64,000 bases of DNA from Propionibacteriaceae bacterium (GTDB taxonomy: Bacteria; Actinomycetota; Actinomycetes; Propionibacteriales; Propionibacteriaceae). Numbering within the stretch: position 1 is the stretch's first letter; every line of letters begins with the position of its first letter. The position numbers and the translations under genes were made by a program. This document shows positions 5,254-9,974 of this stretch, one piece after another. The notes beneath the pieces are model-generated. The model did no database searches. It worked only from the letters and a program-made list of their open reading frames with translations, and was not told the DNA's origin. The stretch lies in the NCBI GenBank assembly GCA_017306015.1, contig JAFKJK010000013.1:62001-126000 (forward strand), in the 5' to 3' direction.

Positions 5254-5742
5254 TCAGGGTTCGGGCGGCCCGATCGAGTCCGGCCGGGGGAGTGCTGCAT
5301 GGCCTGCGTTGGCCGTGCGACGCCGTAGCCGCCGTTGCTGTCTCCGCCATGCCTTGGGTGCCCGCCTCGGCAGCGTCGCGAGAACCTCGCCAGAGTGGAC
5401 AAACAGCACGTCGGGGTTGTCGTTGTGCGGCCCGTAGCCGACAGAACCCGTCAGGAGCAGATAGCGCCCGGGTCGTTCCTGGCTCCCTTCGAACCACGCG
5501 TCCTGTCTCCGGCCCGCCCGCAGCCAGACGATGATGGCCTTGGATCCGCGCCTCGCGTGCTGGTACACCCGTTCGACGAAGGCGATCTCGACTCCGTCGG
5601 CGCGAGCCACCAGGGCGTGTTCCCAGCGGGCCGCGAGGGCAGGGTCGGAGCGTCGATGCCAGAGCGCTCGGAGGGCACGGACACCAGCGAGCACGAGCAC
5701 GATCTCGATCAGTCCGATGGCCACCAGAAGGTCTCGAGTCAT
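5254..5742 (-). CDS. Small membrane-anchored protein, function unknown
   Basis: A 162-residue protein. It begins MTRDLLVAIGLIEIVLVLAG, a single N-terminal membrane helix, followed by a basic soluble domain with conserved-looking segments such as GYGPHNDNPDVLFVHSGE and an Arg-rich C-terminus. ATG 5742 is supported by an upstream GGAGGCGAAG. A longer upstream extension is open but has no anchor-like start and would run into the ychF promoter. It is convergent with the AlkZ-like gene and divergent from ychF. I recognise no family. Confidence 0.65.
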   Translation of the reverse strand: MTRDLLVAIGLIEIVLVLAGVRALRALWHRRSDPALAARWEHALVARADGVEIAFVERVYQHARRGSKAIIVWLRAGRRQDAWFEGSQERPGRYLLLTGSVGYGPHNDNPDVLFVHSGEVLATLPRRAPKAWRRQQRRLRRRTANAGHAALPRPDSIGPPEP

Positions 5743-5905
5743 CGCTCTCTTCGCCTCCGATCCTGACGACGGGCTCCACCCCAGCAGTGTCTGCGCGATA
5801 GCCGCGCAGGAGTCGGCCGGCGCCGATTTCGGTGGACAACTCATTTCTCGCTGTCCACAGCTGCCCGACGCGGTGTTGACCCCAGGCCCACTAGGCTGTC
5901 TCCTC

Positions 5906-6979
5906 GTGGCTCTCACCATCGGCATCGTCGGACTGCCCAACGCGGGCAAGTCCACCCTGTTCAACGCGCTCACCCGCAACAACGTGCTGGCGGCGAACTA
6001 CCCGTTCGCGACCATCGAGCCCAATGTGGGCGTGGTCGGGGTGCCGGACGCGCGGCTGCCGGTGCTGGCCAAGCTGTTCGACTCCGAGCGGATCGTGCCG
6101 GCGACCGTGAGCTTCGTCGACATCGCCGGCATCGTGAAGGGTGCGTCCCAGGGCGAGGGAATGGGCAACGCGTTCCTGGCAAACATCCGGGAGGCGGACG
6201 CGATCTGCCAGGTCACCCGGGTGTTCCGCGACCCGGACGTGACCCACGTGGATGGGGAGGTGAACCCGTCCAGTGACATCGAGACGATCCGGACCGAGTT
6301 GATCCTGGCCGACCTGCAGACCATCGAGAAGGCGTTGCCGAGGCTGGAGAAGGAGGCCCGGATCCGCAAGGAGAAGCAGCCCGCGGTAGCGGCCGTCCAG
6401 CGGGCGGCCGAGGTGCTCAACTCCGGCGTCGGCGTCCACGCGGCGGGGCTCGACCTGGAGCCGTTGCGCGAGCTGTTCCTGCTGACGGCCAAGCCGTACC
6501 TGTACGTGTTCAACTGCGACTCCGACGAGCTCGCCGACGAGGAGCTGACCGGACGGATGCGCGCGTTGGTCGCCCCGGCTGAGGCGATCTTCCTGGACGC
6601 GAAGATCGAGTCCGAGCTGGTCGAGATGGAGCCGGACGAGGCCCGCGAGTTCCTGGTGGAGATGGGCATCCCCGAGCCCGGCCTCGACACGCTCGCCCGC
6701 GTCGGCTACGAGACCCTCGGCCTGCAGAGCTACCTGACCGCCGGCCCGAAGGAATCGCGCGCCTGGACGATCCGCAAGGGCGCGACTGCCCCCGAGGCGG
6801 CGGGCGTGATCCACACCGACTTCCAGAAGGGCTTCATCAAGGCCGAGATCGTCAGCTACGACGACCTGGTCGAGCTCGGCTCGGTGGCTGCCGCCCGCGC
6901 CGCCGGCAAGGCGCGCATGGAGGGCAAGGACTACGTGATGGCCGACGGCGACGTGGTCGAGTTCCGGTTTAACGTCTAG
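5906..6979 (+). CDS. ychF: Redox-regulated ATPase YchF
   Basis: An OLA1/YchF-type P-loop NTPase of 357 residues, the standard length, which binds ATP rather than GTP and associates with ribosomes. It shows GIVGLPNAGKSTLFNALT (Walker A), DIAGIVKGASQGEGMGN (switch II), FNCDSDE in place of the canonical NKxD, and the C-terminal TGS-like domain ending DYVMADGDVVEFRFNV. GTG 5906 gives LTIGIVGLPN at the N-terminus as in the family. A TAGGCT -10 box (5892-5897) lies 8 bases upstream, so the transcript is probably leaderless. An upstream open extension is discarded for that reason. Confidence 0.95.
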   Translation: MALTIGIVGLPNAGKSTLFNALTRNNVLAANYPFATIEPNVGVVGVPDARLPVLAKLFDSERIVPATVSFVDIAGIVKGASQGEGMGNAFLANIREADAICQVTRVFRDPDVTHVDGEVNPSSDIETIRTELILADLQTIEKALPRLEKEARIRKEKQPAVAAVQRAAEVLNSGVGVHAAGLDLEPLRELFLLTAKPYLYVFNCDSDELADEELTGRMRALVAPAEAIFLDAKIESELVEMEPDEAREFLVEMGIPEPGLDTLARVGYETLGLQSYLTAGPKESRAWTIRKGATAPEAAGVIHTDFQKGFIKAEIVSYDDLVELGSVAAARAAGKARMEGKDYVMADGDVVEFRFNV

Positions 6980-6998: not shown

Positions 6999-7222
6999 TT
7001 ATACGTGCCCGGGCGATCAGGTCGTTCGGCGCTCCGCTGACTTCGTCAGTTGGCGTCCGCAGAGACGCTCGATGACCTGCGTTTGCCGCCGGGAATCGGC
7101 TCGAGGTGCTGGGGGGGGATCGGATCGGACAGCACAGCATCAGGATCAACGACCAATGGCCGATCTGCTTCGTTCGGACCGACGCCGGTCCCGAGGAGGC
7201 TGAGATCGTTGACTACCGCTGA
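6999..7222 (+). pseudogene. higB: HigB-like toxin, truncated and frameshifted
   Basis: Read with corrections, this stretch gives a HigB/RelE-type toxin. SALR (7026-7037) is followed by an in-frame TGA (7038-7040), then LRQLASAETLDDLRLPPG (7041-7094). After one missing base at about 7092-7094 it continues NRLEVLGGDRIGQHSIRIND and ends FVRTDAGPEEAEIVDYR, with stop at 7220-7222. The last part is a textbook HigB C-terminus (SIRINDQW, EIVDY). The N-terminal 15-20 residues are missing because ychF ends only 20 bases upstream. Its 3' end overlaps the start of higA by 14 bases, as in functional higBA operons. No intact toxin can be made. Confidence 0.8.
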
Positions 7223-7511
7223 CAGAATCGCGCCGATTCACCCGGGTGAGGTGCTCCTGGAGGATTTCATCGAGGGCTTCGGAATCACGCAGAACAGGCT
7301 TGCGGTGTCGATTGGCGTACCGCCGCGCCGGATCAACGAGATTGTGCACGGCAAGCGGTCGATCACTGCCGATACCGCCCTGCGGCTCGGCAAGTACTTC
7401 GGCACATCGGCGCAGTTCTGGCTGAACCTGCAGACGCACTACGACCTGGACGTCGCCGAAGACCGTGTCGCTGAGCAGATTGCGGCGACCATCCCACTGA
7501 AGGTCGCGTGA
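7209..7511 (+). CDS. higA: HigA-family antitoxin (XRE HTH)
   Basis: A 100-residue helix-turn-helix antitoxin. The signature HPGEVLLEDFI, the HTH segment LAVSIGVPPRRINEIVHGKR and the C-terminal TALRLGKYFGTSAQFWLNLQ are all intact. HigA binds the HigB mRNase and represses the operon. The start is TTG 7209, with GAGGAGG at 7194-7200 eight bases upstream, inside the degenerate higB. Because the partner toxin is broken, this gene is either an orphan repressor or a remnant that protects against related toxins elsewhere. Confidence 0.9.
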   Translation: MTTADRIAPIHPGEVLLEDFIEGFGITQNRLAVSIGVPPRRINEIVHGKRSITADTALRLGKYFGTSAQFWLNLQTHYDLDVAEDRVAEQIAATIPLKVA

Positions 7512-7609
7512 CCGAGTTTCCGGTCGCGAACAGGGCTGCCTGCGCGAGGCGGTGCCGCGCCTCAGCTTCTGACACGAGACTGTCGGACGCGACAACTACC
7601 GTGTCGGGG

Positions 7610-8092
7610 ATGAACGAATCGACCTCTGCGCAACTGACGGCGTGGAACGATCAGGAGGATCGTCGCGTCGCCCAGATCATCCGCACTCACGGGTGCTTCA
7701 TCCAAGCGGTGTCGGGCGAGAAGCACAGGCCGCCCTTCGCCTATACGGTCGGCCTGTTCGGATTGAGCCATCCAGAACTGATCGTCTTCGGCCTCGACCT
7801 CGAGTCAGCCGGCGGTACCCTCAACTGGTTTTGCGGTCGTGTTCGCGGGGGCACCGATCTCACGCCTGGGGAGGTCGTTGAGCCCCCACGTTCGGGCACC
7901 CGCTTCCTTGTCGAGGAGTTTCCCGACCCGGGGTCTGCGCTGTACGCCGCGAACCGGCACTATCAGCGTCCGCGCGAGGCATCGGTTCCGGCATACCAAC
8001 TCACCTGGGACGTCGATCACGCCTTTCCGTGGGAGGCAGGCTACCCGTATCCCGACTGGCTCCAACCGCGTCCGGGCTGTTACGTGGAATGA
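7610..8092 (+). CDS. DUF4262 domain protein
   Basis: A cytoplasmic protein of 160 residues. Segments such as THGCFIQAVSG, PPFAYTVGLFGLSHPELIVF and FPWEAGYPYPDWLQPRPG match the DUF4262 pattern (GLxxxxHPELxxxG and the C-terminal QPRPG). Its biochemical role is unknown. ATG 7610 lies exactly 7 bases after a TACCGT box (7597-7602), indicating a leaderless transcript. Its stop codon overlaps the next ATG (8089), so the deaminase-like pseudogene was once its operon partner. Confidence 0.85.
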   Translation: MNESTSAQLTAWNDQEDRRVAQIIRTHGCFIQAVSGEKHRPPFAYTVGLFGLSHPELIVFGLDLESAGGTLNWFCGRVRGGTDLTPGEVVEPPRSGTRFLVEEFPDPGSALYAANRHYQRPREASVPAYQLTWDVDHAFPWEAGYPYPDWLQPRPGCYVE

Positions 8093-8520
8093 CGAGGACG
8101 CTGATCGACGACCTGATCAAAGGAGGCCGCCGCGCTACTCAACCGGTCCTCGGCGACGGACGGTGGTTCGGCGACGTGACCAGAGTGCTGGTGGCCGCGT
8201 CCGGCGCTCATCACGGCGGGGTGTGCATCGACACCGCTTGGGGACGGGATTCTGCGCTGAGGCGTCCGCGATCGCGTCCATGGTGACCGCGGGGGAGCGG
8301 CGGACCGAACGGATCGTCGCGGTCTGGCGCGACCCGGCGACCGGCGACACTCACCGCCCTGCCACCGTGCGGGCGGCGTCGGCTGTTCCTCTCCCAGCTG
8401 CACCCGGACAATCGCCGGACGGTGGTCGTGCTGGGTGTGGGCGACGCGCTGACCATCGAGCAACTGGTGCCCAGGCTCGACTGGCCCGCGCCGCTGCCCG
8501 CGGTTCGCCTTTCCGCCGAA
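8089..8520 (+). pseudogene. Cytidine-deaminase-like gene with two compensating frameshifts
   Basis: The start ATG 8089 overlaps the DUF4262 stop. Reading frame one gives MTRTLIDDLIKGGRR...GGVCIDT. After a one-base loss near 8238 the next frame gives GTGFCAEASAIASMVTAGE and ERIVAVWRDP. After a one-base gain near 8343-8365 the first frame resumes with TALPPCGRRRLFLSQL, VVVLGVGDALTIEQLVPRLD. CAE followed by PCG is the zinc-site order of cytidine/blasticidin deaminases, but the family's PCGxC is PCGRR here, so the last zinc Cys is lost. The original stop is not identifiable; the frame runs on to 8628 into the next gene. Confidence 0.6.
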
Positions 8521-8587
8521 GCCATAGTCCTTCGTCGATTCGTGACGAAGCCCGCGTCCCGGAGTCGTGCGCCGCTAGCGTTGGCCC

Positions 8588-9502
8588 ATGCCGATCTCGC
8601 TGGAGCAGTTCGCTGCGTTCGTGGCTGACCATCCGCTGGGCGTGGTCTCGACCCATGATCCGGCCCGCGGACCGGAGGCCGCGCTGGTGTCGTTCGCCGT
8701 CACCGACGACGGGGCGGTCCTGTTCGACACCTTCGTGGACTCCCGGAAGGTCGCCAACCTGGCCGCTGACGGACGCGTCGCGATCGTGCTGGGCTGCTCC
8801 GGCCCGGTCTCGATCCAGGTGGAGGGCACCGCCAGCCTGCCGTCCGTCGAGGAGCGCGCCACGTGGGCAGCCGAGTACGAACGGCGCCTGCCGGGGTCGC
8901 GCGCGAGGAGGCCGGAGCTGACCGTGGTGCGGGTCGAACCACACTGGCTCCGCGTCTACGAGGTGGCCGCCTCAGGCCCGGTGGTTCGCGAGGGCACGCC
9001 GCCTTGGTCGCGTCCCGGGGTCGATTCCGCGTCCGGACCGCAGGGCCCGTGGCGCTGTTGTCGCGACGAGCCCGTGCCGGACGACGTGGCCCGGCTGCTC
9101 GCCACCGTCCCGGAATGGTTCGGCCTGCCGGAGGCCAACGCCGAGTACATCGACGCCGCTCGGGCCAAGGAGACGTGGACGGTGCGAGATGTGACCGGTG
9201 CGGTGATTGGCGTCACCCTCGTCGACCGGCATTTCCCGCATGTTGCCGAGATTCACCTCACGGTCGTGGAACGGGCATACCACGGGCAGGGCGTCGGCAC
9301 GGCGATGCTGTCGGCGATTGAGGCCGACTCGCGTGAGCGGGGAGTGAAGCTGCTCGAGGTCAAGACGCTCGGCGAGTCACACCCCGACGCCGGCTACGCG
9401 CGGACCCGCCACTTCTACGAGAAGGTCGGGTTCCTGCCGTTGGAGGAGACCGACCTGTGGGGTGAGCTCAATCCCTGCCTCTTCCTGGTGAAGCCGCTCT
9501 GA
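8588..9502 (+). CDS. Fusion of pyridoxamine-phosphate-oxidase-like and GNAT domains
   Basis: A protein of 304 residues. Residues 1-130 are a split-barrel flavin-binding PNPOx-like domain (MPISLEQFAAFVADHPLGVV, VLFDTFVDSRKVANLAADGR, HWLRVYEVA). Residues about 155-304 are a GNAT acetyltransferase (AEIHLTVVERAYHGQGVGTA with the Q/RxxGxG/A acetyl-CoA loop, TRHFYEKVGFLPLEE, NPCLFLVKPL). The linker at 131-155 is low-complexity. The two halves are normally separate proteins, so this may be a gene fusion through loss of a stop codon. A TAGCGT box (8576-8581) six bases before ATG 8588 indicates a leaderless transcript. Substrates are unknown. Confidence 0.85.
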   Translation: MPISLEQFAAFVADHPLGVVSTHDPARGPEAALVSFAVTDDGAVLFDTFVDSRKVANLAADGRVAIVLGCSGPVSIQVEGTASLPSVEERATWAAEYERRLPGSRARRPELTVVRVEPHWLRVYEVAASGPVVREGTPPWSRPGVDSASGPQGPWRCCRDEPVPDDVARLLATVPEWFGLPEANAEYIDAARAKETWTVRDVTGAVIGVTLVDRHFPHVAEIHLTVVERAYHGQGVGTAMLSAIEADSRERGVKLLEVKTLGESHPDAGYARTRHFYEKVGFLPLEETDLWGELNPCLFLVKPL

Positions 9503-9581
9503 GAGGCTGCCGGACGGATGATCGGCGGGTGGACCGTGAACCCGCTTGCGCCACCGGCCGACGCGTCCTGACGGACACCGC

Positions 9582-9974
9582 TCAGCGGAAGCCGGCGTAG
9601 AACACGGCCAGCGCGAAGCCCGCCAGCGCGAGCACGAGCTGCACCCACTTCCGGGGATGCAGGAACGCCTCGACGACCGTCCACCCGGCCAGGACGGCCA
9701 GCGCCAGACCGAGCATCAGCCCGATCGCGGACATGTCCGGCAACTGGCCGCCGAGGTCGTCCACGAAGGCGACCGCGACCAGGGCCAGTGCGCCGAGTCC
9801 ACCCAGAACCTCGAGCACGCCGCGCAACCGGCGCAGCGCGCTCGCGAGACCGGACGTCGGCACGGCCCGGCGGCCGCCGCTCGGCGTGGCCCGCATCTTA
9901 CCCAAGCCGAAGACGATGAACCAGAACCCGGTGACGACGCCCACGCCGACATCAGGGCCGATCGCACTGAGCAC
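9582..9974 (-). CDS. Small integral membrane protein, function unknown
   Basis: A 130-residue protein with about four hydrophobic helices: GVGVVTGFWFIVFGLG, LGGLGALALVAVAFV, AIGLMLGLALAVLAGW and VQLVLALAGFALAVFYAGF. A basic loop follows helix 1. It starts at GTG 9974, with GAGAGGAG about 8 bases upstream and a TAGGAT -10 box about 30 bases upstream, divergent from the ABC exporter promoter. No family motif is recognised. Confidence 0.7.
   Translation of the reverse strand: MLSAIGPDVGVGVVTGFWFIVFGLGKMRATPSGGRRAVPTSGLASALRRLRGVLEVLGGLGALALVAVAFVDDLGGQLPDMSAIGLMLGLALAVLAGWTVVEAFLHPRKWVQLVLALAGFALAVFYAGFR

Follow-up and report, generated by a model that had tools for sequence, protein, structure and literature searches.

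A probable decaying deaminase pseudogene behind a DUF4262 gene in a Propionibacteriaceae bacterium

Immediately behind a DUF4262 gene in a 64,000-nucleotide stretch of a Propionibacteriaceae genome (hereafter the window) lies a sequence that resembles cytidine and blasticidin-S deaminases but is spread over two reading frames. This raises the question of whether a broken gene, an intact gene disturbed by errors, or one half of a two-gene unit is present. The source genome is 4.24 Mb in 32 contigs and 99.5% complete. The ORF at 5531-6979, which we take to be ychF, is followed by a HigA-family antitoxin gene at 7209-7508 (TIGR02607, E 1.9e-32). In the 7050-7508 region no recognised HigB gene was found upstream of the antitoxin gene; by eye, 7118-7219 resembles the C-terminal end of HigB, and this segment gave zero matches to NCBIfam and Pfam models. 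The DUF4262 gene (7610-8092, plus strand) has an intact open frame and matches Pfam DUF4262 (PF14081) above its cut-off, with an E-value of 1.8e-25. Its start at 7610 is our reading, the longest ORF starting at 7508. Its third-position G+C (7610-8089) is low, 0.74 versus 0.96 for ychF and 0.88 for the PPOX-acetyltransferase fusion gene at 8588-9502, which joins a pyridoxamine-5'-phosphate-oxidase-like domain to a GNAT acetyltransferase. Sequence 3' of the deaminase stretch (8515-8590) folded no better than shuffled sequences (z -0.74). In a published paper, DUF4262 appears as a domain of WpsD, from the wps gene cluster (PMC13390465).

Frames that are joined by eye are open to bias, and homology was therefore tested with a profile of 30 relatives from which the window was excluded, against 1173 stop-to-stop pieces of at least 20 aa from the six frames of the window. 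Only the three expected pieces passed, the next best having an E-value of 1.1 (n=1173). Piece 1 (8089-8238, plus strand), the N-terminal part ending in GVCIDTA, matched profile positions 2-48 (E 1.9e-8, match at about 8107-8247). Piece 2 (8244-8351, plus strand) lies in the other frame, carries the CAE motif and matched positions 47-79 (E 4.7e-12, about 8241-8339). Piece 3 (8344-8511, read from 8359, plus strand), again in the frame of piece 1, matched positions 80-130 (E 6.2e-13, about 8344-8496). The three collinear matches thus tile positions 2-130 of the profile, and they bear out the sequence-only reading, which had proposed a deaminase-like gene broken over two frames with both ends in one frame. 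The stretch is not one open reading frame: the frame breaks lie at about 8239-8247 and 8340-8358, and the first frame meets a stop at 8284-8286. The frame of piece 3 stays open until 8625. Most of the relatives viewed end near WPAPLD, and the frame in the window runs beyond that point; one relative, L065, is likewise longer than the others (159 aa).

Identity between the relatives and the window copy is 39-56% over 116-131 residues. They were found via the read-through of the three pieces and via an alignment (A3) in which the read-through is one of seven rows, so that their choice depends partly on the window copy. The profile leaves out three matches of the order draw, namely G043 (39% identity), G034, whose 5' part is replaced, and the shortened G064, as well as the weaker matches L032-L038 and L040 and the class-draw genome G345.

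Active enzymes of the deaminase superfamily have an H/C-A-E motif and a PCxxC motif with both cysteines. In this family zinc is held on CAE and PCxxC and a cytidine-like base is deaminated. The window copy retains CAE, as FCAEA in piece 2, and PCG. The second cysteine of PCxxC, a zinc ligand kept together with the first in 30/30 relatives, is arginine (PCGRR for PCGRC), as had been read from the sequence alone. The invariant glutamate two residues past the lost cysteine is leucine. In total the window copy differs at 3 of the 29 columns that are invariant among the relatives, the cysteine ligand included; this number is not unusual, since the corresponding loss in four divergent relatives is 3-5 of 32-34. 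The good conservation of the CAE piece suggests that decay set in recently, unless the indels are errors. By homology with the family, an intact enzyme of this subfamily would bind zinc through these two motifs and act on a cytidine-like base by deamination. Judged from its residues and frames, the window copy, one cysteine short and in two frames, should not do so. Among the relatives in the profile, L060 (1501-1896, minus strand), one of the four divergent ones, has CAD where the other 29 have CAE, and therefore its activity is doubtful as well.

Searched singly against curated libraries, the pieces gave a best E-value of 0.0017, to an NCBIfam cytidine deaminase model. The read-through, its junctions filled with X, matched NCBIfam NF005314 with an E-value of 1.2e-8 and 35.1 bits against a cut-off of 131; three intact relatives tested reached 1.1e-14 to 2.4e-13, also under the cut-off. 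The window and these relatives thus resemble cytidine deaminase (NF005314, TIGR01354) with scores under the NCBIfam cut-offs. Pfam reported no deaminase at E 1 for the pieces or the read-through, and a PF00383 search over the genome itself at E 0.1 returned four other places, the window copy not being among them. The three intact relatives scored 28.6, 29.5 and 24.8 bits with PF00383 (cut-off 25). A weak Pfam match of piece 3 to the viral family UL21a, under its cut-off, was set aside as chance. Among solved structures, the best match of the read-through was the cytidine deaminase EfCDA (8x6u, E 8.7e-5). L016, one of these three intact relatives, matched blasticidin-S deaminase over 5-132 (3oj6, E 8.5e-10; 1wn5, E 1.4e-6), versus 2.5e-4 and 0.12 for the read-through. 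By its tiling of the profile the window copy is homologous to the cytidine/blasticidin-S deaminase superfamily along the whole domain, and unlike blasticidin-S deaminase it is broken and has lost one zinc ligand. That the best solved match of L016 is blasticidin-S deaminase may be a clue to the subfamily substrate, as a lead only. Among the matches listed, literature titles on blasticidin deaminase named no such subfamily and no DUF4262-deaminase pair.

Where did the gene come from? Matches to the deaminase at E ≤1e-3 occur in 24 of the 244 other genomes sampled from the order, 17 of them strong (E ≤3.1e-10), and 16/393 other genomes of the class draw matched at E ≤1e-12. No strong match to the subfamily was found in the 29 other genomes of the genus that were searched; weak matches occurred in 16 of these, the best with an E-value of 4.3e-6. 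Since the congeners searched have weak matches only and intact copies exist elsewhere, we infer transfer rather than inheritance. Composition gives no sign of it, because the pieces have a third-position G+C of 0.80, 0.91 and 0.84, which shows no clear difference from the 0.85-0.96 of the neighbours. A DNA search with 7500-9600 against 40 relatives gave short matches only, in 14/40, partly within the deaminase stretch (e.g., G034, 70% over about 135 bases). The deaminases of G034 and G064 (L030 and L031, order draw) are broken too, the 5' part being replaced in one and the other being cut short. A copy of the subfamily on a Streptomyces plasmid bears the annotation "hypothetical protein". One deaminase relative, L103, came from a scan of viral contigs. 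This subfamily deaminase on a putative viral contig (2986-3402) lies in one frame, its best segment is 58% identical to the query, and it carries CAEA as the window does. Flanks were viewed at 12 loci by means of a simple gene caller, and in 7 of these the caller recognised the deaminase itself; the neighbours vary, and in L050 it is a DUF3806 gene, in place of DUF4262, whose stop overlaps the start of the deaminase.

In the window the DUF4262 stop overlaps the deaminase start, as the sequence-only reading had stated; the overlap is an ATGA at 8089-8092, with both genes on the same strand. From it that reading had proposed a former two-gene unit, possibly a detoxification or defence module that is now decaying. 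Comparison with other genomes does not bear this out. DUF4262 was present in 16 of the strongest 17 deaminase genomes of the order draw and in 12/16 of the class draw, and adjacent to the deaminase in none; thus 28 of the 33 other deaminase genomes tested have DUF4262, and 0/33 have it beside the deaminase. The strongest 17 are the 24 matching order-draw genomes less the seven whose deaminase matches are weak (G039, G080, G122, G145, G192, G199 and G242). Adjacency was judged from contig coordinates, the two genes being more than 1 megabase apart where they share a contig and otherwise on different contigs. The deaminase loci spanned about 1.5 kb on each side, save one side of L015 and L028, and L062 was slightly short. 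From the DUF4262 side, 36 loci were scanned: that of the window, 33 of other genomes (3 from the order draw and 30 from the class draw, the latter taken from 30 of 81 DUF4262 genomes) and two overlapping ones on a contig of a congener. A deaminase match was found in that of the window only. In the congener, whose record is labelled Propionicimonas sp., the DUF4262 gene is 79% identical to that of the window and has no deaminase downstream; the DUF4262 ORF there comes after a ychF-like ORF, and at a distance of 64 bases downstream of DUF4262 lies a long ORF on the opposite strand. Between ychF and DUF4262 the congener has no space for a HigA/HigB pair. On plasmids, DUF4262 turned up in 3 records. 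PADLOC defence models gave zero matches to the four proteins scanned. With this distribution against the overlap and the shared strand, a detoxification or defence module appears very improbable. Since DUF4262 and the deaminase are adjacent nowhere else in these samples, the ATGA overlap appears to reflect either a landing by chance or an arrangement specific to this lineage. We give almost no credence to the idea that two frameshifts, or the pieces by themselves, still yield from the broken gene a deaminase-like protein that is structured but catalytically dead and acts with DUF4262 in a lineage-specific unit.

An intact gene whose frame breaks are artefacts of sequencing or assembly is the least improbable of the alternatives, and we still consider it unlikely. 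The two breaks leave both ends in one frame, the first adjoins a run of four G, and most conserved residues are retained. The codon-position signal, the mean difference at first and second positions over that at third positions, is likewise compatible with an intact gene: the ratio between the window and the 30 relatives is 0.61-0.92 (median 0.76), and that of 309 relative pairs with a third-position difference of at least 0.39 is 0.22-0.73 (median 0.49), so that the ranges overlap, the 0.73 maximum coming from pairs with one of the four divergent relatives. The higher level of amino-acid-changing differences in the window copy points towards relaxed selection but is no proof of it, and third positions in this comparison may be saturated. 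However, indel errors would leave the cysteine-to-arginine change, the glutamate-to-leucine change and the frame open to 8625 unexplained. Programmed frameshifting that yields a functional protein would also account for ends in a common frame, but it would need two shifts, a zinc ligand is gone and the 30 profile relatives are read in a single frame over the match. We regard it as scarcely conceivable.

Much the most probable explanation is that the deaminase gene in the window belongs to a blasticidin-S/cytidine-deaminase-like subfamily and is now a pseudogene in decay. The ancestral genome would have had a small zinc-dependent deaminase of the cytidine/blasticidin-S type, a subfamily that is intact in other actinobacteria. 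The gene probably arrived by horizontal transfer and landed behind the DUF4262 gene. Its function would then have been lost: there are two frame breaks, one zinc ligand out of three is gone and the stop is missing from its usual place; the order of these lesions may have been any. The ancestral activity may have been hydrolytic deamination of a cytidine-like nucleoside or of a nucleoside antibiotic. Beyond annotation the significance of the finding is small: the region deserves the label of a deaminase pseudogene, and a role should not be assigned to DUF4262 from its association with the deaminase.
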